64,000 nucleotides of DNA from Paracoccaceae bacterium. Its GTDB lineage: Bacteria; Pseudomonadota; Alphaproteobacteria; Rhodobacterales; Rhodobacteraceae. The translations under genes and the position numbers were made by a program. Position 1 is the first letter of the stretch. Each line of letters begins with the position of its first letter. Location of the stretch: NCBI GenBank assembly GCA_002709405.1, contig PAQV01000050.1, forward strand, positions 1-64,000, written 5' to 3'. Of the stretch, positions 13,587 through 57,906 are shown in pieces. The notes below the pieces were generated by a model. The model searched no databases. It was not told where the DNA came from and worked only from the letters and a program-made list of their open reading frames with translations.

Positions 13587-14575
13587 GCCTGCACCATTGC
13601 GTGTTCGGGCCTTTCGATGACCGGGTGCCAGCAGGCGACCTGGTGCCCGCCATGATGATGGGGGGCCGGAACCTCTTGTCCGCAGCGCTCGGTGGCGGCG
13701 GCGCAGCGGGGGTGAAAGCGGCATCCGGGCACCACTTGAAGCGGGTCGGGCGGTGCTCCGGCAATCGGGCTCAGCGGCACGTTGCGCGGGATGTCGAGGC
13801 GGGGAACCGAGCTGAGCAGGCCGCGCGTGTAATGGTGCATCGGCGCGCGGTAAAGCTCGGCCGCCGTGGCCTGTTCCACGATCCGCCCGCCGTACATCAC
13901 CGCCACGTTCTGGGCGTAGCGTGCGACGATGCCGAGGTTATGGGTGATCAGGACCAGCCCGACCCCGTGATCGCGGCAGATCCGTGAGGTCAGCGACAGG
14001 ATCTGCGCCTGGATCGTGACGTCCAGCGCGGTCGTCGGTTCGTCGGCAAGGATCAGGCTGGGCTTGCAGGCCAGGGCGATGGCGATCATGACCCGCTGGC
14101 GCATGCCGCCGGACAATTGGTGGGGATATTGCTTCAACCGCTGGGCTGGATCCGAAATGCCGACCTCCTCCAGCAGGTCGATGGCCCGTGCCTTGGCCGC
14201 GCGCCGGGACAGGCCCAGCTTCAGGCGCATGCCTTCGGTGATCTGGTGGCCGATGGACCGGACCGGGTTCAGCGAGGTCATGGGTTCCTGGAAGATCATC
14301 GAGATCTCGCTGCCGCGCAGGGCGTTGTGGGCCTGTTCGTCCAGCTTTGTGATGTCGCGCCCGTCAAAGGTGATCGACCCTCCCGCGATGCCAAGCCCCT
14401 CGCTCAGCAGGCCGATCACCGCCAGCGCGCTAAGGGACTTGCCCGACCCCGATTCGCCGACAATGGCCAGCGTCTCGCCGCGCTCCACGGAAAAGCTGGC
14501 GTCATGGACAAGGCGATGGGTCTGCCCGTCGCGCTCGACATCTATGGCCAGGTTTTCAACCGCCAGAAGGGGCAT
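13583..14575 (-). CDS. Peptide-type ABC importer, DppD ATPase
   Basis: A 330-residue ATPase and the first gene of the minus-strand operon. Walker A is GESGSGKSL, the Q-loop region is [12 protein letters not shown], the signature is LSGGMRQR and Walker B is [12 protein letters not shown]. It ends with the C-terminal motif GCRFHPRCAAATERC. It faces the divergent GntR gene across a 112-bp intergenic region containing a perfect palindrome, which is the likely control point for the whole operon. Confidence 0.92.
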
Positions 14576-47738: not shown

Positions 47739-48011
47739 TCACATCGTGATCGTCGGGGTCTTCTTGCGGGGGGCGGGTTCGGCCGGATCGGCCCAGGTGA
47801 CCTTGAGGCTGAACGCGCATTGGCCGTCCTCGCGCTCGGCCTTGATCCGCACGGTCATCAGTCCGTCGGTCTTCAGCACCAGTTCGCGGTCGCCGTCGCC
47901 CAGGGTCATTTCGCCCTTGGAAAACCCCTTCGACAGCGAGGTCAGCAGGGTCTTGATGGTCTTTGCGTCCTGAAGCGATTCATGGCTGAACCGGGTCTGT
48001 GCGCTGCCCAT
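47739..48011 (-). CDS. Amphi-Trp domain small protein
   Basis: A 90-residue protein. FSHESLQDAKTIKTLLTSLSKGFSKGEMTLGDGDRELVLKTDGLM followed by amphipathic strands ending FSLKVTWAD matches the amphi-Trp domain, a one-domain small protein family associated with GAK-type gene neighbourhoods. The C-terminal tail is Pro/Lys-rich (EPAPRKKTPTITM). No enzymatic residues are evident; a partner or substrate role for the kinase system is possible. It follows the metallophosphatase gene by 17 bp. Confidence 0.8.
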   Translation of the reverse strand: MGSAQTRFSHESLQDAKTIKTLLTSLSKGFSKGEMTLGDGDRELVLKTDGLMTVRIKAEREDGQCAFSLKVTWADPAEPAPRKKTPTITM

Positions 48012-48028: not shown

Positions 48029-49324
48029 TTAACCGATCCGGTCCGGTGCGAAATGCTTGGCCCGGGGGTAATCCCGGCTCAGACCGATGACATCTCCGGA
48101 GGGCAGGATCAAGGTCGCCCCGGCGCCGATGCCCTCCAGCCCTTCCATCCGGCGCGAGGCCCGGTCCAGCGTGACGTCGGCCTCCAGGTGGAGCAGCCCG
48201 CGTTTGGCCAGCAGGCGCTGGCCCGCGTGGTTGTTGACGTGGCCCTGGACGACCATGTGGATGCCGTTGCGGTGCAGCAGGTCGACGCCCCGGTCGGTCA
48301 GGTCCAGGTCGGACGGGCGGTACTTGGTGCGCACCAGGTTGGCGACCGGGCCGAAATAGAACGCCAGCGAGGCGTCCCGCGTTTCGGCATGGTAGCGGGC
48401 GTTGACGGCCGCGGCGCCGCCTTCGTCCAGCAGGGCGCACATGTCGTCGCAGATCCCGGCATGCACGAACAGCAGCGATCCGCTGCGGGCGACCACGTCC
48501 ATGCTGTCGAAAAACCAGGCGTAATCGCCGCCCGGCGTGAAGAAGGCGTCCTGGCAGGTCCGGACGGCGGCCAGCAGCTGGCGGGCGCTCAGCCCGGTGC
48601 GGGCCATCTGGGCATCGAACTCGGCGCGCTTGGCCGACAGCTTGGCGATCTCGCGGGCGATGACGTCGGCGGGCAGGATGCCCCGGGCGGCGTGTTCGAA
48701 GTCCTCCGCCCAGCCGGGCAGGGGCAGCAGGCGGGCCTGGCAGGCGGCCTCGTCGGGCAGGGCGGCCACGTCGGCGGGGGTCACGTAGCGGTCGAAGATC
48801 TCGCGCAGGGCGGGCAGGATCTTGCGGCCCATGCGCAGGAACAGGTGATCGCGAAGGGGCGCGCGCGGCCGGCACAGGGCGTCCACCGCCAGGCGCATCC
48901 GCAGGTCGTGGTTCCCGGCCAGGATCCGCAGGTCGGCCCCGGACAGGCGCAGCGCGCCAAGCGCATCCAGCATGCATAGGTTACTGGGCCCCTTGTCCAG
49001 GCAATCGCCGCCGATGATGATGGTCGCTTGCCGGCCGAACCGGGTCAGGGCGATGCCCCCGGCGTCGCGCCGGATGACCCCGCCGGCCACAAGCGAGCGC
49101 AGGAACCCGTCGGCATCGGCATGGGTGTCGGACACGAAGACCACCGGCCGCTCCGGCCAGCGCCAGCCACCATGACGCCGCGCCCGGTCCAGGCAGGCAG
49201 AGATCACCACCCGCGCTGCGGGATCGGTGGCGCAGGGCCAGGGTTCAAGGTCGCGGGGCAGGTCGGACAGTTCGTTGATCGCATCGTGAACCGGGGGCAG
49301 CAGCGCGGCGGGAGGGGCGAGCAT
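48029..49324 (-). CDS. Calcineurin-like metallophosphatase of the GAK-type cluster
   Basis: A 431-residue binuclear metallophosphoesterase. The metal motifs run in order: FVSDTHAD (DxH), IIGGDCLDKG (GDxxD), ILAGNHDLRM (GNHD), FVHAGI and VVQGHVNNHAG (GHxxxH type). The central 150 residues between GNHD and the later His are an unusually long helical insert. I chose the ATG at 49324. A start at 49399 would add 25 residues and overlap the preceding phosphatase gene by 40 bp; neither has a strong ribosome site. No signal peptide is present. The substrate is unknown, probably a phosphoprotein or small phospho-compound made by the linked kinases. Confidence 0.85.
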   Translation of the reverse strand: MLAPPAALLPPVHDAINELSDLPRDLEPWPCATDPAARVVISACLDRARRHGGWRWPERPVVFVSDTHADADGFLRSLVAGGVIRRDAGGIALTRFGRQATIIIGGDCLDKGPSNLCMLDALGALRLSGADLRILAGNHDLRMRLAVDALCRPRAPLRDHLFLRMGRKILPALREIFDRYVTPADVAALPDEAACQARLLPLPGWAEDFEHAARGILPADVIAREIAKLSAKRAEFDAQMARTGLSARQLLAAVRTCQDAFFTPGGDYAWFFDSMDVVARSGSLLFVHAGICDDMCALLDEGGAAAVNARYHAETRDASLAFYFGPVANLVRTKYRPSDLDLTDRGVDLLHRNGIHMVVQGHVNNHAGQRLLAKRGLLHLEADVTLDRASRRMEGLEGIGAGATLILPSGDVIGLSRDYPRAKHFAPDRIG

Positions 49325-49359
49325 GTTTATCGACGTGACCTTCGTGCCTGTGCCCGGTG

Positions 49360-50058
49360 TCAGTCGGCTGGCTCCTCTGAGCGGGGCCTGACCTTCCATG
49401 AACCGGCGAAATGGCGCCAGCTATCACGGGGAGTGTAACAGACAAGTAACGGTCTGGCGTGGAACATCGACAACCGGCGGATATCGTCGCGCGACATCAG
49501 GCCCAGGTGATGGGCGGCATGGCGGAACGAGGCTCCGTGGCCGACGAAGACGGTCAGCCGTGCGGGCGAGGCGGCGGCCATCGTCTCGCGCAGGTGGGCG
49601 GCCACGCGGGCGCCGGCCTCCATCAGGCTTTCGGCCCCGTCCAATGGCAGGCGATAGTCGCTGTCCGATTTCCAGCCCGGCGGCGGCGGGTCGTGGCGCG
49701 GATCGGTGGCCAGGACGGCTTCGATCTGGGCAACCGTCAGGTTGGCGGCGCTGCCCAGCCCGCGTTCGGCCAGGGCCCGGGTCTCGCGCACCTCGTCCAC
49801 CTGCAGGCCCAGGGCGGCCAGCCGGTCGGCGATGCCCGTGGCCGTCTGCCAGGCGCGCAGCTGCATCGAACAGTGCACCACCGGATCCAGGGTCAACCCG
49901 TGCACGTCCAGCAACCCGGCCAGCAGATCCGCACAGGTCCGCGCCTGGGCCTGGCCTTCATCGGTCAGCGGATGCGGCTGGCGGGCCGAGGGCGCTCCGG
50001 CCTGCTGGTGATAGGCCCCGTGGCGGATCAGCGCGGCATAGCGCGCGCCCTCAGTCAT
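49360..50058 (-). CDS. Histidine phosphatase family protein of the GAK-type cluster
   Basis: A 232-residue branch-1 histidine phosphatase. The catalytic His lies in ALIRHGAYHQQ, HPLTDEGQAQA and CSMQLRAWQTA are typical, and the second His is in FVGHGASFRHA. The ATG at 50058 overlaps the 3' end of the HprK-like gene; an alternative at 50070 adds four residues. It is probably cytosolic. Its position directly behind the kinase suggests it reverses that kinase or hydrolyses its product. Confidence 0.88.
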   Translation of the reverse strand: MTEGARYAALIRHGAYHQQAGAPSARQPHPLTDEGQAQARTCADLLAGLLDVHGLTLDPVVHCSMQLRAWQTATGIADRLAALGLQVDEVRETRALAERGLGSAANLTVAQIEAVLATDPRHDPPPPGWKSDSDYRLPLDGAESLMEAGARVAAHLRETMAAASPARLTVFVGHGASFRHAAHHLGLMSRDDIRRLSMFHARPLLVCYTPRDSWRHFAGSWKVRPRSEEPAD

Positions 50059-51124
50059 CGAAGAGCACACGGCCCTGCGCGGCCAGCACGTCGAAATCGA
50101 CCCGGCCGGTGACCTCGCTGACCCGCACGCCGGACAGGGCGTCCAGGTAGGGGCCGGGGACGGGGGCCGCGCCGTTGGGCTCGAAATGGCCGTCGGGGTG
50201 CTGGTAGAACGGTCCCGGGGACTTCATGATCGCCGTCAGCAGGTCGGGGCGGGTGGCCAGGTCGACCTGGTCCACCCGGGTCGGCAGGTCCGATCCACGA
50301 TCCCAGTTCAGCACCCAGAAATCGGTCAGGGGCGCGTCGAACCGGACGCGGCCCGGCCCGTAGACCTGGCCGATCATCAGGTCGTGCTTGTCTTCCAGCG
50401 ACCACAGCGCATCGGGCGGCATGGCCAGCAGCTCGGCCCGCCGATCCGGGTTGATCAGGGCGTGCAGGCGGGGATTGCCCAGGATGGTGCCGGGGTTGAT
50501 CCGGGGCTGCTTGGGGATGCCAAGGCAGCGGGGCGGATCCCCGGCCCGCACCAGCAGACGGTCGTTCGACACGAAGCGCGTGCCCTCCAGGTCCATCATC
50601 CGCAGCACCGAGGTCGACTTGCCGCCCCCCGACAGCCCAGAGATGGCCAGCGTGCGGCCCTGGCCTGTCACCGCCGCGGCATGGCACAATTGCCAGCCGT
50701 CCTGCTGGGCGGCGTTCAGGATCTGCGAGTTGATGAAGTTGATCACCGTGCTGACGTTGTCGTCCAGGGGCCCGAAGGCCACCGGCGCGCCTTGCCATTG
50801 CAGGAAGGTCACGCCGCTGCGCACCTTGCGGACCAGTCGCGCGTCGTCCAGGTCCACCACGGCGTCCTTGCGCCCGGTCTTGCCGGGTTCGCGCGACCAG
50901 TCCACCCAATCGGGCTCTGGCGTCAGGGCCTGGCCAGGCAGCAGGTGGATCAGGGTATCGCCGGGCGTGTCGCAAAGCGCGTCGGCGAAATAGGCGACAA
51001 GCTCGGCCCGCAGGGGATCGGGGCTCAGAACGCTGAAGCAGTAGGGGCCGATGGCAAGGTGAAAGGGCGCGGCCTCCGCATTCCGCTCCAGGTCGAGTGC
51101 AGCGATGATGTCGGCGGCTTTCAT
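50051..51124 (-). CDS. HprK-related kinase B (GAK-type system)
   Basis: A 357-residue protein with the PEP-carboxykinase-like/HPr-kinase fold. Walker A ISGLSGGGKST is at residues 161-171, preceded by the family His in QLCHAAAV (148), and followed by FVSNDRLLV with Asp188 at the Walker B-like site. The N-terminal 150 residues are specific to this subfamily. It lacks the HPr-recognition C terminus, so HPr is an unlikely target. It is flanked by ATP-grasp and phosphatase genes with overlapping ends, and the pairing matches the GAK set as I recall it. The substrate is unknown. Confidence 0.82.
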   Translation of the reverse strand: MKAADIIAALDLERNAEAAPFHLAIGPYCFSVLSPDPLRAELVAYFADALCDTPGDTLIHLLPGQALTPEPDWVDWSREPGKTGRKDAVVDLDDARLVRKVRSGVTFLQWQGAPVAFGPLDDNVSTVINFINSQILNAAQQDGWQLCHAAAVTGQGRTLAISGLSGGGKSTSVLRMMDLEGTRFVSNDRLLVRAGDPPRCLGIPKQPRINPGTILGNPRLHALINPDRRAELLAMPPDALWSLEDKHDLMIGQVYGPGRVRFDAPLTDFWVLNWDRGSDLPTRVDQVDLATRPDLLTAIMKSPGPFYQHPDGHFEPNGAAPVPGPYLDALSGVRVSEVTGRVDFDVLAAQGRVLFDD

Positions 51125-52005
51125 GCGCGCACCTCGCCCAGCACGTGGTCGGCGACCAGGGCCGAGGCGTCGATGCCGCAGCCGTCCAGCGCCCCGCGAT
51201 ACCCGCCGAAGGCCGAGACCTCGAACACGATCGGCCCGTCCGGGGTCAGGGCGATATCGACGGTGGTGAAGGTCAGCCCGAAGGGGGCCTGTGCCCGCCG
51301 GCCCAGCTCGATCAGCGCCGGGTCGGGGTCGAAGGGCGCGTACTTGCCGCCCGAGTGGATCGTCGTGTTCCAGCTGCCCGACTGGCCGACCCGGCTGTAG
51401 GTGCAGACATATTCGCCGTCCAGGAACACCATGCCCAGGTCCTGGCCCGACAGGTCGGCCTTTTGCTGGATGTACATCACCGGGTTGACGGCCCGAAACG
51501 CCGCGATCTGCGCGGCGGCGTCCGGCGCGCCGTGATCCAGCAGCACCATGCCCCGCGCCTTGGTGGAAAAGAGCGGCTTGAACACGGCCGAGCCGAAGCG
51601 GGCCAGGGTCTGGACGGCGGCGGTGGCGTCTTCGGTGATCACGGTGGGTGGCATCGGGATGCCCGCATTGGCCAGCGTCACGGTGCAGGCCAGCCGGTCC
51701 ATCAGGCGCAGGATGGACGTGGGCGCGGAAAAGATCTTCACGCCCTTCGCCTCGGCCACCCGCAGCATCTCCAGCCGGTCCAGCGCATGTGGGCTGTAGG
51801 TTTCCGAGATCTTCTTGATCACCAGCCCGTCAAGCGAGGCCAGGTCGATCCCGTCGCAGGTCAGCGCTCCGCTGACCAGGTCCAGGGTCACGCAGGACAT
51901 GTCGACGACCAGCCGGAAGCCCGTGCGTTGTTCCAGGGCATCGGCCAGGGCTTCGGTCGACCATTTGCCGGGGGTGCCGATGACACCGATCTTTTCAGTC
52001 ACCAA
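51121..52005 (-). CDS. GAK-type system ATP-grasp enzyme
   Basis: A 294-residue protein of the RimK-like ATP-grasp type. It has an N-terminal pre-grasp domain (IGVIGTPGKWSTEALADAL, LDGLVIKKISETYSPHALDRLEML), the ATP-binding central part (FGSAVFKPLFSTKARGMVLL with the nucleotide Lys) and VYQ/MYIQQKADLSGQDLG. The C-terminal metal region is PIVFEVSAFGGYRGALDG, where the usual Glu-Asn pair appears as Glu-Val-Ser. Such enzymes ligate a carboxylate to an amine or thiol, or add glutamates to a protein. It overlaps the HprK-like gene (ATGA). Confidence 0.82.
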   Translation of the reverse strand: MVTEKIGVIGTPGKWSTEALADALEQRTGFRLVVDMSCVTLDLVSGALTCDGIDLASLDGLVIKKISETYSPHALDRLEMLRVAEAKGVKIFSAPTSILRLMDRLACTVTLANAGIPMPPTVITEDATAAVQTLARFGSAVFKPLFSTKARGMVLLDHGAPDAAAQIAAFRAVNPVMYIQQKADLSGQDLGMVFLDGEYVCTYSRVGQSGSWNTTIHSGGKYAPFDPDPALIELGRRAQAPFGLTFTTVDIALTPDGPIVFEVSAFGGYRGALDGCGIDASALVADHVLGEVRA

Positions 52006-53632
52006 AAAGCGTCCTTGTAGGCAGTTTGAACCGCGCTTCCTGGCCTTCGGGCACGGCCAGCGCGGTTTCCAGGATGTAACGGGCGCGCAGCATCATGCGC
52101 CGGGCCTGGCCGGGGTCGACCACGAAGCGGGTCGAGCTGGCAAAGGACCGGGCCAGCCCCAGGGCCAGCCGGTAGTCGAAGGTCTTGTCGCCCTCGCGGG
52201 CGGCGAACTTGGCGGCCATGTCGTGCATCGCGCAGGCCACCTGGGCGATGCGGGCGCGGGTGCCGGCATCCAGCACCTGCAGGCGGTAGTTCGACACCAT
52301 GAAGACCGACACGTCCTGCACGTAATCCATGTAGCGCGACCGGTGCAGGTCGATGAACCGGATCTTGCGGTCCTCGGGGTCATAGATCACGTTGTCGAGG
52401 TTGAAATCCCCGTGGATCCAGACGGAAAACGGCGCGCACAGCCCGGTCTCGCGCCGCGCGGCGGCAGCGACCAGTTGATCCAGAGCGGGGATCTCGTGGT
52501 CCTGGATCCGCTGGGCCTGTGCATCGAATTGCGGGTGCAGCCGATAGACATCGCCCATCCGACCGGCCATCTGGTCCATGGCCTTCATCTCGGCCCGCTC
52601 GTCGATGCGGGTCTGTTTCCAGATGTCGCGCACGGTCTTGTGCAGGGCGGATTGCGCCTCGGCCAGGTGGGCCGGGGAAGCGCCCAGCACGATGTCTTCG
52701 AAGGTTTCGCCGTTGAGATGTTCGATCAGCATCCCGGCGCTGTCGCCGTGCTTTTCGTAGGACAGGATCTTGGGGGCGAGCCCCGGATAGACCGAGTTCC
52801 AGCTTTTCACGCCGACGCGCTCTTCCTTGACCTTCCGGCGGTCGCCGTCCTTGAACACCGCGTCCACCGGCTTGGCCTTGCCCTTGCCGGCCTGCCAGCT
52901 GACGCTGGAAATCGCGCTGCCCGACCGGGTTTCGGCCAGGGGCCGCAAGGTGATATCGGCGTCGCTGCCCACGCCGGCAAGTACGCTGCGCAGGGTGAAA
53001 TAGCGCTCGAACTGGACGGTCTGGCCGATGCTGATGGACAGGATCGCCTCGCTGATGCCCTGAAGCGCTTCGCCCATGCGCCGGATTTCATTGGCCGTCA
53101 GCAGGGCGTTGGACAGGTCCTCGGTGTGCTTTGATCCGGCCATGTCGCGGGTATAGGTGCGGAACAGCTGGTCGTAGACCTGGTCCAGCTCGGTCCGGGC
53201 CTGGCCGATGGTCACCGCCAGGCGGCTGTCGCGGTCGTGCAGGGCCTCGGGCACCTGGGCGACCTGTTTGCGCACCCGCTTGAGAGGTTTGACATAGGCC
53301 TCGGGGCGCAGCAGCTTGACGCGCTGGACGTCCTCGGCATGGCTGACCGCCCGTCGCCCCATGCGCGAGATCAGGTCCAGGTTGCGGGCGATCGTGTCGA
53401 CGCCCTGCAGGTGCAGCCGCCGGGTCTGGCTGCGCTTGCTGCGCAACAGGCCCGAGAGGCAGGCATTGCGCACCCGGCCGGACAGGTTGTGGGCATAGCC
53501 GGCCCTCTGGGCCAGGCGCAGGGCAGTTTCGGGCGCGGGGGCGGCGAAATAGGCGATCAGCCGGTCCAGCTGGCCATCCATCTCGGCCAGCAGGAAGGTC
53601 ATGTTCTCTTCGGCCGCGTCGGGCAGTTTCAT
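51995..53632 (-). CDS. PhoU-like / phosphotransferase fusion of the GAK-type cluster
   Basis: A 545-residue protein. The N-terminal 220 residues are all helical with two PhoU-like repeats (RNLDLISRMGRRAVSHAEDV and TANEIRRMGEALQGISEAIL). A kinase-like region follows from about residue 260 (SWNSVYPGLAPKILSYEKHG, GMLIEHLNGETFEDIV). The aminoglycoside-phosphotransferase catalytic motif IHGDFNLDNVIYD is near residue 405, and the metal Asp is in RFIDLHRSRYMDYVQD. It is the first gene of the minus-strand cluster and overlaps the ATP-grasp gene by 11 bp. PhoU-like domains are linked to phosphate sensing. The combination suggests a phosphate-responsive small-molecule or protein kinase; this is an inference. 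Confidence 0.8.
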   Translation of the reverse strand: MKLPDAAEENMTFLLAEMDGQLDRLIAYFAAPAPETALRLAQRAGYAHNLSGRVRNACLSGLLRSKRSQTRRLHLQGVDTIARNLDLISRMGRRAVSHAEDVQRVKLLRPEAYVKPLKRVRKQVAQVPEALHDRDSRLAVTIGQARTELDQVYDQLFRTYTRDMAGSKHTEDLSNALLTANEIRRMGEALQGISEAILSISIGQTVQFERYFTLRSVLAGVGSDADITLRPLAETRSGSAISSVSWQAGKGKAKPVDAVFKDGDRRKVKEERVGVKSWNSVYPGLAPKILSYEKHGDSAGMLIEHLNGETFEDIVLGASPAHLAEAQSALHKTVRDIWKQTRIDERAEMKAMDQMAGRMGDVYRLHPQFDAQAQRIQDHEIPALDQLVAAAARRETGLCAPFSVWIHGDFNLDNVIYDPEDRKIRFIDLHRSRYMDYVQDVSVFMVSNYRLQVLDAGTRARIAQVACAMHDMAAKFAAREGDKTFDYRLALGLARSFASSTRFVVDPGQARRMMLRARYILETALAVPEGQEARFKLPTRTLFGD

Positions 53633-53692
53633 GGCCTGGCCGCCCCGGATCGGTGCGCGGGCCGGGCGCGGCGTGACGTCGGACCGTCACAG

Positions 53693-53710
53693 GTCATCCT
53701 TGCGGATGAC
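53693..53710. promoter_or_regulatory. Hairpin in the divergent GAK promoter region
   Basis: GTCATCC-TTGC-GGATGAC is a perfect 7-bp inverted repeat 60 bp upstream of the minus-strand cluster and 157 bp upstream of the CofD-like gene. It could be an operator or a leader hairpin. The rest of the 234-bp divergent region (53633-53866) shows no clear -10/-35 pair. Confidence 0.35.
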
Positions 53711-53866
53711 GGCGCGGGCCGCGACGCGTATGGATGGCAGGGCGCCTGGAGGATCGTTTCTGGGGCCATGGGGGTTTATCCCCGACAAGCGCAACATTTC
53801 CAAGACGGATCGGCCAGATCGGGCAGGGGTCGGGGCAAACCGGCAAAGCGGGAACAGGTACAGGCC

Positions 53867-55075
53867 ATGACCAGCATACGGATCGAACGCGACATCGCGC
53901 TGCCCGATGCCCTGCGGGTGTCGCGGGCGCTGAGCACGCCGCACCTTGGCCCGCGCATCCTGTTCTTTTCGGGGGGCAGCGCGCTGAACGGGATCTCGCG
54001 CGAGCTGAAGAGGTACACGTTCAATTCCATCCACCTGATCACGCCCTTCGACAGTGGCGGATCCTCGCAGATCCTGCGCCGCAGCTTCAACATGCCCGCC
54101 GTGGGCGACCTGCGCAGCCGGCTGATGGCGCTTGCCGATGAAACGGTGCTGGGCCAGCCGGACATCTTCGCCCTGTTTTCCCACCGCCTGCCCGCGACGG
54201 ACACCGGGCTGAAGTCCGAGGTGCGGGCCATGACCGAGGGCAAGCACCCGCTGGTCAAGGCCATCGGGCGGCCCATGCGGACGCTTATCCAGTCCTTCCT
54301 GCAGGATTTCACCGACAAGGCCCCGGTCGGGTTCGATTACCGCAACGCCTCGATCGGCAACCTGATCATCGCCGGAGGCTACCTGGGCAACGACAGGGCC
54401 CTGGAACCGGTTCTGTTCCTGATGTCCAAGATGGTCGATGTGCGCGGCACGGTGCGCTCGGTCGTGGACGCTAACTTGCAATTGGGCGTCGACCTGGACG
54501 ACGGCCGGCGGATCATCGGCCAGCGCGAGATCACCGGCAAGGAAGTCCCGCCTCTGGACGCCCGCATCACCCGGGCGTTTCTGAGCGACGGCACCGGCGC
54601 CTTGCGCCCGGGCGACGTGACCTTGCCCAAAAGAAACCGGCGGATGATCGGCCAGGCGGACGTGATCTGCTATCCGCCGGGCAGCCTGTATTCCAGCGTC
54701 ATCGCCAACCTGCTGCCCGCCGGCGTCGGCCGGGCCGTGGCGGCGCAGGGCGTGCCCAAGATCTACCTGCCCAGCCTGGGGGCCGACCCAGAGGCCCTGG
54801 GCCACAGCCTGGCCGACCAGGTGCAGGCCCTGGTGACGCCATTGCGCGCCGATATGGGGGCCGATACGGGCACCAATACAGGCGACAATCCCGCCGATCT
54901 GCCCGTCCGGCGCTTTGTAACCCATGTCCTGTGCGACCTGTCCTGCGATCCCGCCGCCTGCGACGTGGTCACCGCCCGCCACGGCATCCCCTGCCTGCGC
55001 CTGCCCCTGGCCGGGGATGTGCCCGGCCGCTACGACCCCAAGCTGGCCTGCGAGGCGCTGGTCTCGGTCGCCTGA
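53867..55075 (+). CDS. GAK-type system CofD-like protein
   Basis: A 402-residue protein of the CofD/UPF0052 fold. ILFFSGGSALNGISREL near residue 30 is the phosphate-binding start, HLITPFDSGGSSQILRRSF is the CofD DSGG motif, and FDYRNASIGNLIIAGGYL and ICYPPGSLYSSVIANLLP are further conserved blocks. CofD transfers phospholactate (or a PEP-derived group) to the deazaflavin Fo, while relatives in the YvcK branch bind UDP-sugars, so the ligand here is open. The ATG at 53867 is chosen; an in-frame extension to 53237 only covers the antisense of the neighbour. It is divergent from the kinase cluster. Confidence 0.82.
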   Translation: MTSIRIERDIALPDALRVSRALSTPHLGPRILFFSGGSALNGISRELKRYTFNSIHLITPFDSGGSSQILRRSFNMPAVGDLRSRLMALADETVLGQPDIFALFSHRLPATDTGLKSEVRAMTEGKHPLVKAIGRPMRTLIQSFLQDFTDKAPVGFDYRNASIGNLIIAGGYLGNDRALEPVLFLMSKMVDVRGTVRSVVDANLQLGVDLDDGRRIIGQREITGKEVPPLDARITRAFLSDGTGALRPGDVTLPKRNRRMIGQADVICYPPGSLYSSVIANLLPAGVGRAVAAQGVPKIYLPSLGADPEALGHSLADQVQALVTPLRADMGADTGTNTGDNPADLPVRRFVTHVLCDLSCDPAACDVVTARHGIPCLRLPLAGDVPGRYDPKLACEALVSVA

Positions 55076-55168: not shown

Positions 55169-55186
55169 GTCACAGTTTTATGACAG
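55169..55186 (-). promoter_or_regulatory. Candidate Pho box (PhoB site)
   Basis: Read on the minus strand the sequence is CTGTCATAAAACTGTGAC: two 7-bp direct repeats separated by an AAAA spacer, close to the PhoB consensus CTGTCAT-N4-CTGTCAT. It lies 188 bp before the CHAD gene but in inverted orientation to it, and 94 bp after the CofD-like stop. The rest of the 298-bp gap (55076-55373) shows no other clear signal. Confidence 0.5.
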
Positions 55187-55373
55187 TTTCCGTGCCGGGC
55201 AGTAGGCGAGCCATGGCATAGAGCCGTCCCCCAGGGCGCGCGGACGTCATGTTCCGCCTCCATGGTATCGCTTCCTGCCTGCCCATCGCAAAGACCGCTT
55301 GTCCCGCATATGTTGGACACCTGGCGCAGGGGGCACCGGCGGATCCGGTGGCCCGACAACAGGAGGCTTTGAC

Positions 55374-56906
55374 ATGCTGGCGGACATAGCCCCATCCAAG
55401 CGCGTGTTCCTGGCCGGACAGCCGGGAGCGCGGCTGATCGGGGCCCATGTCGGCGCGGCGCGCATAGTGGCGGATGGTCCGGAATACGTGGTGCCGCTGG
55501 GTCTTCTGGATACGTTCGACGCCCAGGTCTCTGCCGCCGGCCATCTGCTGGTGAGCGTCGATGGCGGTCTGTGGATGGTGCCGGCCGATGCCCCGACGAT
55601 CACGCAGGACGGCGGCCGGCCGGGCTTTGTCCAGCAGATGGCCGCCGGGCCGGTGGCCGACCGGCTGGCTGCTCACGTCGACCCGCTGCGTACCCTGTTG
55701 CCGCTGGCCGGCGGCCAGCTTGCCCGCCAGGACATCAAGATGATCGACGACCTGGACAAGGTCGCGGCCCGGTGCCGCCTGTGGCGGTTCGAAACGGGAC
55801 CAGATCGCAGCGTCACGTTGATCGCCTTCCGGCCGGTGCGCGGCCATGGCCCCGAGATGGCCGAGCTGAAGCGGCTCGTGGCGTCGTTTGGCGCACCCCT
55901 GGCCAGCCCGGGCGCCGCCGCGCGCCGTCTGGCCGGGCCCGAGGCGGCCTATACCAACAAGCCGGTCACGCCGATGACCTCAAAGGACCGCGCCTTCGAC
56001 GTGGCCAACGCCTTTCTGCGGGCCAACCTGTCCACCGCCCGGCGCAACGAGGACGGGGTGATCCGCGATCTGGATACCGAGTTCCTGCACGATTACCGCG
56101 TGTCCCTGCGCCGCATCCGCTCGGTCCTGTCGCTGTTCAAGGAGGTCTATACCCCCGCCCGGACCGAGGCGCTGAAGGCGCGGTTCAGCGCCCTGATGGC
56201 CGACACGGGCCGTCTGCGCGATCTGGATGTCTACATGCTGGAACGGGACCGCTACGCCGCCTTGGTGCCCGAGCCTTTCCGCCCCGGGATCGAGGCCTTG
56301 TTCGACCACCTGGCCGCCGACCGCACGCGCGCCCAATCGGCCCTGTCGGCCCGCTTCCGGTCGCAGGCCTACCTGGACGAGCTCGCGTCTTTGACCGCAC
56401 TGCTGAAACACTCCGACCCGCAGGACCAGGGCCCGCGGGCCGGGCGCAAGGCCTATCCCTACGCGCAGGCGCTGATCTGGAAACGCTATCGCAAGGTGTG
56501 CAAGATCGCGCGCGGGATCGACGACGATACACCCGACGGACAGGTCCACGCCCTGCGCATCCAGTGCAAGAAACTGCGCTACCTGATCGAGTTCTTCGCC
56601 CCGCTGTTCGATGACAAGGACACGCAGAAGGTCGTCAAGTCCTTGAAGAGGCTTCAGAACACTCTGGGGAACTTCAACGATTACTCGGTCCAGCAGGTTG
56701 AGTTGCTGGATATCCTGGCCCGCCTGGACGAAGACTCGTCCGATGTGATCACACAGGCCGCGGGCCTTGGCGCGCTGGTCTCGGTTCTGCACCAGAAGCA
56801 GCTGGAGGAACGCGGGCGGGTGGCGGCCAGCTTCGCGGCCTTCGACGCGCCGGGTACCCGGCACCGGGTCCGCGCCCTGTTCAAGCCCGGAAAATCTGCC
56901 CGATGA
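55374..56906 (+). CDS. CHAD-domain protein with degenerate CYTH-like N terminus
   Basis: A 510-residue protein with a textbook AGGAGG ribosome site. Residues about 205-500 are a CHAD domain, an all-helical fold that binds polyphosphate. Its two His-containing signature helices are LHDYRVSLRRIRSVLSLFK and VHALRIQCKKLRYLIEFF, followed by the LQNTLGNFND block. The first 190 residues include LGLLDTFDAQVSAAGHLLVSV, reminiscent of the CYTH/triphosphate-tunnel pattern (FDTFDWRLYRAG) but without its acidic and basic tunnel residues, so catalysis by that part is unlikely. Its location beside the GAK-type genes and a Pho box points to a polyphosphate-linked role. Confidence 0.85.
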   Translation: MLADIAPSKRVFLAGQPGARLIGAHVGAARIVADGPEYVVPLGLLDTFDAQVSAAGHLLVSVDGGLWMVPADAPTITQDGGRPGFVQQMAAGPVADRLAAHVDPLRTLLPLAGGQLARQDIKMIDDLDKVAARCRLWRFETGPDRSVTLIAFRPVRGHGPEMAELKRLVASFGAPLASPGAAARRLAGPEAAYTNKPVTPMTSKDRAFDVANAFLRANLSTARRNEDGVIRDLDTEFLHDYRVSLRRIRSVLSLFKEVYTPARTEALKARFSALMADTGRLRDLDVYMLERDRYAALVPEPFRPGIEALFDHLAADRTRAQSALSARFRSQAYLDELASLTALLKHSDPQDQGPRAGRKAYPYAQALIWKRYRKVCKIARGIDDDTPDGQVHALRIQCKKLRYLIEFFAPLFDDKDTQKVVKSLKRLQNTLGNFNDYSVQQVELLDILARLDEDSSDVITQAAGLGALVSVLHQKQLEERGRVAASFAAFDAPGTRHRVRALFKPGKSAR

Positions 56907-56967: not shown

Positions 56968-57906
56968 CTAGGTCGCAGGGACGGGCTGCCAGGCCCGGAT
57001 CAGCCGGGCCAGCTGCAACGAGGTGACCTGGCGCGCCGCCTCGGCCCGGGGCAGCCAGATGCGCTGGCGGTGGTTTTCGTCCCAGCGGGTATCGGGATCC
57101 ATGGCCGTGACCTGCATCGGGTAGACCGTGACGTGACAGGTGGCGCCCCATTTCTCGACCGGGTAGGTGCCCAGGGCCTCGGGCTGGACGTGGCCGGTCA
57201 GGCCGGCCTCTTCGAGAGCCTCTTGCGCGGCCGAGTCCTGCGGGCTCAGCCCGGGTTCGCAGATGCCCTTGGGAATGCCCCATTTGAGCCCGCTGCTGGA
57301 GGTGATCAGCAGCACCTCCGGAGCGCCGTTTTGCAGCCGATAGGGCAGGGCGGCGGATTGGGTATAGTAATAGGCGGGCCGGTCGCGGCGCTCGGCCGAA
57401 CCGGGCCAGGGGAAGCTGTCGGGCAGGTCGTCGGCCATGACGATCTGGTCCAGTCGGACGGTGTCGGCCGGGTCAAGTAGGTCGCCCGGACCGTGGGGGG
57501 CAAGGATCAGCCGGGCCAACGCGCCACGGCCCAGTTTCGGACCATTCGGCACCAAGTGCTGCAACAGGCGCGACATCGCGCCCGGATGACCGGCGCACAA
57601 CACGCGCGGCACGGGATGGGCGGCCAGTGCGGCCAGGTGATCCGCAACCGGGCCCTTGTAAAGCCGTGGGTCCGTCTCGATGCCCTGCGCGGTCCATCCC
57701 CCGGCCTTCAGGGCCTTTTCGGCGCTGACCAGGGCGCGCTGCGCCGGTGAGGCCAGGGTGACATCGGGGCGCAGGCCGGCCGCGCCCATCCAGGCGCCCA
57801 ACTTCTGGGCCTGCCGCTTGGCCCGGGATTTCAGCTCTCGCGCCGCGTCCGGATCGCCGGGCCGGGCCTTGCCGTGGGTCAGCAACAGGATCTCTCGGTC
57901 GGTCAT
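56968..57906 (-). CDS. Histidine phosphatase (SixA-like) and NUDIX hydrolase fusion
   Basis: A 312-residue two-domain protein. Residues 1-150 are SixA-like (ILLLTHGKARPGDPD..., TLASPAQRALVSAEKAL, LCAGHPGAMSRLLQHL). The catalytic His is kept, but the usual RHG/RHA Arg is Thr. Residues 180-312 are a NUDIX domain with GIPKGICEPGLSPQDSAAQEALEEAGLTG split as G-x5-L-x7-QEALEEAGL, a variant box keeping the EExG core. The NUDIX/SixA pairing is known from nucleotide and dinucleoside-polyphosphate hydrolases such as mycobacterial MutT1, in the opposite domain order. It is convergent with the CHAD gene and 60 bp from it. Confidence 0.85.
   Translation of the reverse strand: MTDREILLLTHGKARPGDPDAARELKSRAKRQAQKLGAWMGAAGLRPDVTLASPAQRALVSAEKALKAGGWTAQGIETDPRLYKGPVADHLAALAAHPVPRVLCAGHPGAMSRLLQHLVPNGPKLGRGALARLILAPHGPGDLLDPADTVRLDQIVMADDLPDSFPWPGSAERRDRPAYYYTQSAALPYRLQNGAPEVLLITSSSGLKWGIPKGICEPGLSPQDSAAQEALEEAGLTGHVQPEALGTYPVEKWGATCHVTVYPMQVTAMDPDTRWDENHRQRIWLPRAEAARQVTSLQLARLIRAWQPVPAT

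Follow-up and report, generated by a model that had tools for sequence, protein, structure and literature searches.

A protein in which a two-repeat PhoU domain is joined to a phosphotransferase of the APH fold, here called PhoU-APH, is encoded by a 64,000-nucleotide stretch of DNA from a Paracoccaceae bacterium (assembly GCA_002709405.1, contig PAQV01000050.1, positions 1 to 64,000 of the forward strand), referred to below as the window. The fusion is real and complete, and its gene is a near-constant part of the core of the GAK operon, an uncharacterised system surveyed here in Pseudomonadota. We give roughly even chances to the reading that PhoU-APH is an active APH-fold kinase, gated in cis by its PhoU domain, at the core of a GAK phosphorylation and dephosphorylation circuit that is linked to phosphate limitation in some species. 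The gene and its parts lie in the window as follows.

51995..53632, (-) strand: PhoU-APH fusion protein, 545 amino acids, ATG start, heading the window's GAK operon
53021..53632, (-) strand: PhoU domain, residues 1-204, two helical repeats (Z 23.3 to 4q25; profile E 3.8e-10)
51998..53014, (-) strand: APH/5-methylthioribose (MTR)-kinase-fold phosphotransferase domain, residues 207-545 (PF01636 48.1 bits; Z about 20)
52391..52414, (-) strand: catalytic loop HGDFNLDN, residues 407-414 (coordinates checked)
52850-52852, (-) strand: codon of K261
52349-52351, (-) strand: codon of D428

Two PhoU-like repeats at the N-terminus had been proposed in a first-pass annotation of the sequence, and this is borne out by the predicted structure. 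In an AlphaFold2 model of the protein, with a mean predicted local distance difference test score of 88.1, residues 1-204 superpose on the Pseudomonas aeruginosa PhoU structure 4q25 over 204 aligned residues, with a root-mean-square deviation (rmsd) of 2.1. Positions 17-217 of a profile built from 63 orthologues of PhoU-APH (alignment A2) produce a match to the P. aeruginosa PhoU structure, indicating that both PhoU repeats are present in the fusion, and Pfam PhoU (PF01895) is matched by residues 119-196 at 30.9 bits (gathering score 23.5). The APH domain, for which the first-pass annotation had suggested a hidden Markov model search, was located by Pfam APH (PF01636) at residues 286-448, above its gathering score of 23.2. 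In addition, A2 profile positions 398-441 match APH(3')-Ia (E 5.6e-4), which is also the top Foldseek match for the model (E 9.9e-9). Model residues 207-545 superpose on 2pyw, a 5-methylthioribose kinase (Z 19.8, rmsd 4.3), and residues 208-527 on 3csv, a putative APH (Z 19.6, rmsd 3.3), and the list of structural matches to the kinase half also holds PsiK, fructosamine kinases and APH(4).

The HGDFNxDN kinase motif read by the first-pass annotation proved to be complete and conserved. Catalytic conservation was taken from an alignment of 20 sequences (A1), comprising the window's, one found via the fusion (L086) and 18 found via the adjacent ATP-grasp gene. This alignment was not gathered by the HGDFN motif; the 80 named loci described below were fetched with patterns that include it. 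Every one of the 20 A1 sequences carries K261, E271, H407, G408, D409, F410, N411, D413, N414 and D428. PhoU-APH has the kinase-like fold, the HGDxxxxN motif and the catalytic Asp by which the APH superfamily is recognised, and it is predicted to be catalytically active. A lone fusion or a gene-calling artefact is ruled out by near-full-length relatives in the 80 named loci and in 19 other genomes of the sampled (G) set.

The named loci come from a search of named genomes with A1, which gave 347 stretches encoding a relative; the best 80 were kept, from roseobacters, Roseibium, Marinobacterium, Marinobacter, Sedimenticola, tubeworm endosymbionts and others, and some of these loci end at contig ends. 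Six loci of the G set (L080, L082-L086) coincide with records among the named loci, so that the two sets overlap. The fusion adjoins the ATP-grasp gene in 19 of the 20 loci found via the ATP-grasp family, the window's included, and in 20 of 21 when L086 is added. All 80 fusion-fetched loci hold the ATP-grasp gene, which follows the fusion in the same orientation, and the distance between the two matched stretches ranges from -8 to +61 base pairs (bp). HprK-related kinase B is found in 79 of them, the amphi-Trp protein in 75, the metallophosphatase in 74, the histidine phosphatase in 73 and the CofD-like protein in 49, with a SixA-NUDIX relative within reach in 22 (inside the operon in 12 of those) and a CHAD gene within the fetched flanks in five. 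In 58 of the 80 a small NUDIX gene immediately precedes PhoU-APH, so that the fusion heads the operon only in loci that lack this gene, such as the window's.

The association is also seen at the level of whole genomes. Among 398 sampled genomes of the phylum, with thresholds of E<=1e-50 for ATP-grasp and E<=1e-20 for the fusion, ATP-grasp was found in 14 and the fusion in 13, all of them within the 14 (hypergeometric 1.7e-23, with relatedness not corrected). The CofD-like protein was present in seven of the 398, five of these with ATP-grasp. Across 21 GAK genomes the fusion occurs in 20 and the CofD-like protein in 11, which makes the fusion a more constant GAK member than the protein that bears the system's name.

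The CofD-like protein was also considered as an obligatory partner of the system, and this is ruled out by its presence in only 5 of 14 and 11 of 21 GAK genomes. Two genomes (G218 and G461) have a CofD-like gene without a GAK ATP-grasp match, that of G461 falling below the curated cut-off.

The window carries all four families TIGR04354, TIGR04355, TIGR04356 and TIGR04357 over their cut-offs, and the ATP-grasp, HprK-related kinase B and CofD-like members stand together at one locus, as expected of a GAK system. The neighbours of PhoU-APH are as follows.

51121..52005, (-) strand: GAK system ATP-grasp enzyme, TTG start, overlapping the end of PhoU-APH (TIGR04356 436.9 bits, cut-off 300)
50051..51124, (-) strand: HprK-related kinase B (TIGR04355 286.5 bits, cut-off 200)
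49360..50070, (-) strand: histidine phosphatase family protein (PF00300 65.9 bits)
48029..49399, (-) strand: calcineurin-like metallophosphoesterase (PF00149 22.4 bits, cut-off 21.5)
47739..48011, (-) strand: amphi-Trp domain protein, 90 amino acids, with conserved F8, H10, S12, G33 and W73 (TIGR04354 61.7 bits, cut-off 31)
53687..53737, (-) strand: relic of a small NUDIX gene, 16 codons, just 5' of PhoU-APH
53867..55075, (+) strand: CofD-like protein of the GAK system, transcribed divergently from the operon, start inferred from translations (TIGR04357 453 bits, cut-off 340)
55299..56906, (+) strand: CHAD-domain protein, a neighbour and optional component (PF05235 204 bits)
56968..57906, (-) strand: SixA-like histidine phosphatase and NUDIX protein, optional, likely start (TIGR00249 37.6 bits, below the cut-off of 74.5; PF00293 34.4 bits)

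The GAK operon is chromosomal and sometimes plasmid-borne. Five plasmid records have the GAK ATP-grasp, and the fusion is found in exactly these five, annotated as 'phosphotransferase' in two of them and as 'aminoglycoside phosphotransferase family protein' in three. These plasmids (NZ_CP060438.1, NZ_CP110386.1, NZ_LR027555.1, NZ_CP015232.1 and NZ_CP042262.1) are all predicted to be non-mobilizable. A gene of ParA-like appearance, judged by eye, is present in 7 of 99 GAK loci (e.g. L074:14379-15137), and the six such loci listed all have CHAD.

In the mechanism that we propose, the PhoU domain would sense a phosphate-related state, through a ligand or a partner protein, and would then switch the kinase in cis. 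The adding side of the circuit would be made up of the PhoU-APH kinase, HprK-related kinase B and the ATP-grasp ligase, attaching phosphate or amide groups, with phosphate removed by the histidine phosphatase, the metallophosphatase and, in some species, the SixA-NUDIX protein. The target of the kinase may be a small metabolite extended by the ATP-grasp enzyme, or the amphi-Trp protein. A direct coupling of phosphate status to phosphorylation, as the first-pass annotation had suggested, would follow from such an arrangement, and the PHO-box-like sites found upstream of some other GAK operons lend it indirect support. Precedent in trans for PhoU acting on a kinase comes from Escherichia coli, where PhoU has been modelled in contact with the PAS and catalytic domains of the kinase PhoR (PMC4423584), and a transporter with a PhoU-like domain, NptA, has been mentioned (PMC11705898). 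The same annotation knew of no characterised example of such a fusion. The literature agrees in so far as nothing relevant was found on the GAK system, amphi-Trp, HprK-related kinase or a fusion of PhoU with a kinase or an aminoglycoside phosphotransferase, most subscription journals and all bioRxiv preprints lying outside the coverage; the gene itself, however, is no orphan, since it has a conserved place among the GAK genes.

A link to phosphate limitation was sought upstream of the operon. The PHO box consists of two CTGTCAT-type heptamers four bases apart (PMC4415409, PMC3131613). The 300 bp upstream of the first gene, either NUDIX or the fusion, were scanned on the sense strand at <=3 of 14 mismatches. 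The scan took in 92 regions, namely 79 from the 80 named loci, 12 from the 20 loci of the G set and the window's own, and 81 were left once near-identical ones had been removed. A PHO-box-like direct repeat was present in 13 of the 81. Four hundred permuted heptamers gave a mean of 0.90 regions and a maximum of 11, none reaching 13, and the two highest were the PHO-box repeat itself in a shifted frame. Between 1 and 10 regions had a site at 32 other spacings, and 0 to 2 in ten sets of windows drawn at random from these loci. The best upstream sites have one mismatch (L068) or two (L067, L090 and L164). An earlier scan of 900 bp at <=3 mismatches had found 17 of 79 regions with a site, against 11 of 213 random windows and 2-9 in 12 sets of dinucleotide shuffles; the 900-bp scans are superseded by the 300-bp scan with its spacing and permutation controls. 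PHO-box-like sites are enriched upstream of the operon in some species, and this provides moderate evidence that some GAK operons may be under phosphate-limitation control, which would be exerted through PhoB.

The window holds a single PHO-box-like site with <=2 mismatches over its whole length.

55169..55186, (-) strand: PHO-box-like repeat with 2 mismatches in the CofD-like/CHAD intergenic region, directed away from CHAD

Related loci carry 0.72 such sites per 64 kilobases, and the site may therefore be due to chance. The 80 loci contain 18 sites at this threshold, only two of them upstream of the operon, and ten of the 18 are occurrences of a single recurring site, close to locus position 14,150 and downstream of where the operon begins. 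In L072 a box with one mismatch precedes the CHAD gene (L072:1054), itself placed ahead of the fusion in the same orientation; this was the only one of eight other CHAD loci checked to have a box upstream of CHAD at <=3 mismatches, L083 and L103 being the same locus. The genome of the window has a second, two-repeat PhoU gene on a separate contig (C85), which was intended as a positive control, and no box was found for it at <=3 mismatches in 3.3 kilobases.

Several observations weigh against the reading of PhoU-APH as a PhoU-gated kinase in a phosphate-linked circuit. The predicted template modelling score of the AlphaFold2 model is 0.65, leaving the mutual arrangement of the PhoU and kinase domains unsure. 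At E<=0.01, Pfam APH is matched by 20 of the 20 A1 sequences and Pfam PhoU by 15, which marks the PhoU half as diverging faster than the kinase; its role may be mainly structural. Classical PhoU has an E(D)xxxD metal-binding motif in each repeat, and this is mostly lost in the 63 sequences of A2: in repeat 1, position 90 is E in 13 and D in none, and in repeat 2, position 184 is E in nine, with E or D at position 188 in 56. The window's protein has D86/R90 and R184/E188 at these positions. The PhoU-half positions that are fixed in A2 include R43, G45, Y46, R93, G187, E195, S199 and G203. One locus, L079 (genome G239), has ATP-grasp without the fusion, the N-terminus of its ATP-grasp being replaced, which may reflect locus decay or misassembly; the G239 locus does not stop at a contig end. 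With regard to regulation, 68 of the 81 regions scanned lack a site within 3 mismatches, the window's own operon has no upstream PHO box (best 5 mismatches), and a spacing of 27 bases gave as many as 10 regions. A stronger form of the reading, in which the GAK operon is an unrecognised arm of phosphate homeostasis, induced by PhoB and with its own PhoU tied to the kinase, such that phosphate state directly sets phosphorylation of a dedicated target, either the amphi-Trp protein or a GAK metabolite, and the phosphatases reset it, is one that we consider fairly unlikely.

Four other explanations were weighed. In the first, the operon would encode a protein relay, with the amphi-Trp protein as an HPr-like target of HprK-related kinase B at S12, and possibly of PhoU-APH, and with both phosphatases as erasers. 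The small size of the amphi-Trp protein and its position in the loci, where it is always last among the listed genes when present, would suit such a target, as would its conservation: in 79 sequences (74 of the 75 from the named loci, the window's and four picked from loci of the G set), H10 is retained in 78 and S12 in 77. Moreover, homologues of HPr kinase phosphorylate Ser in small peptides such as paeninodin (PMC8498205). However, S12 is replaced by Ala in two species (L067 and L068), and the amphi-Trp model had no match in the PDB at E<=0.001, a result that does not in itself exclude an HPr-like fold. APH-fold kinases act mostly on small molecules, which also tells against this explanation. 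We regard the relay as possible, though rather doubtful.

A small-molecule substrate would instead suit a cofactor-like pathway, in which the CofD-like transferase and an MptN-like ATP-grasp enzyme build a compound that PhoU-APH phosphorylates and the phosphatases recycle. After its own family, the ATP-grasp protein is best matched by the tetrahydromethanopterin:glutamate ligase MptN (132 bits, cut-off 350), the CofD-like assignment is strong at 453 bits, and MTR kinase gives the best superposition with the kinase half, while PsiK, fructosamine kinase and APH structures also feature in the list. The occurrence of the CofD-like protein in only 11 of 21 GAK genomes nevertheless makes an obligatory intermediate unlikely, and several phosphatase and NUDIX genes would seem to be surplus to a biosynthetic route. 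Such a pathway can be entertained tentatively, and is in our view rather improbable.

A circuit based on polyphosphate (polyP) or diadenosine polyphosphates appears distinctly unlikely. Here CHAD would bind polyP, the NUDIX protein and an ApaH-like phosphatase would cleave nucleotide polyphosphates, and PhoU-APH would be the kinase. CHAD lies next to the CofD-like gene in the window, and CHAD proteins are reported to bind polyP (PMC6537752). In the window's family CHAD is present in 8 of 8 GAK genomes and in 8 of 21 non-GAK genomes (Fisher p 0.003); the 21 comparison genomes are all of that family, one of them (G002) tested for the fusion only. The NUDIX gene that immediately precedes PhoU-APH in 58 of the 80 loci also fits. 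On the other side, outside this family CHAD occurs in only 6 of 13 GAK genomes, it is found in the fetched flanks of only 5 of 80 loci, and the similarity to ApaH reaches 15 bits where the cut-off is 176 (E 0.012). CHAD, and with it polyP, was also considered as an obligatory link and is unsupported in that role, being present in 14 of 21 GAK and 8 of 21 non-GAK genomes (Fisher p 0.12).

Finally, an aminoglycoside-resistance enzyme with a helical extension, as implied by automatic annotation, including that of three of the five plasmid copies, and by APH(3') and APH(3'') being the nearest NCBIfam models, is extremely improbable and was rejected on the NCBIfam cut-offs and the GAK context, since the window's protein stays below the cut-off of every NCBIfam model (33.8 bits against 205 for the curated APH(3')), the gene is constantly located in the GAK operon and the PhoU half is present.

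The recognition of PhoU-APH as a core gene supplies the named GAK system with a missing, near-constant partner and makes the function of the operon testable. The PhoU domain and the PHO-box enrichment suggest phosphate limitation as the first condition under which to seek a phenotype. If PhoU does gate the kinase in cis, the fusion would offer a self-contained model for what PhoU senses. For surveys of resistance genes, the label 'aminoglycoside phosphotransferase family protein' on the kinase of a conserved operon is a trap.

PhoU-APH can be compared with several known systems. It resembles PhoU (4q25, 1t72) in the two-repeat helical fold of residues 1-204 and in matching Pfam PhoU above the cut-off. 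Classical phoU, whose product binds a sensor kinase or the Pst transporter, however sits in a pstSCAB-phoU neighbourhood, whereas the domain in the fusion is tied to a kinase, is adjoined by GAK rather than pst genes and has mostly lost its metal motif. With the superfamily of APH(3'), 5-methylthioribose kinase and fructosamine kinase it shares the fold and the catalytic Lys, Glu, HGDFNxDN and Asp, but the window's protein lies far below the curated APH cut-offs and has an additional PhoU domain and fixed GAK partners. The wider gene set recalls that of Bacillus, in which HprK and HPr/Crh occur in gene order with YvcI (NUDIX) and YvcK (CofD-like); in both, an HprK-type kinase, a small protein, a NUDIX protein and a CofD-like protein are found together, although the ATP-grasp enzyme and PhoU-APH are not known to have a counterpart in the Bacillus set. 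The small proteins also differ, the HPr fold having three helices and the amphi-Trp model one helix and four strands. In contrast to the recognised families of the GAK system, PhoU-APH reaches no NCBIfam cut-off, yet it is a more constant member of that system than the CofD-like protein.

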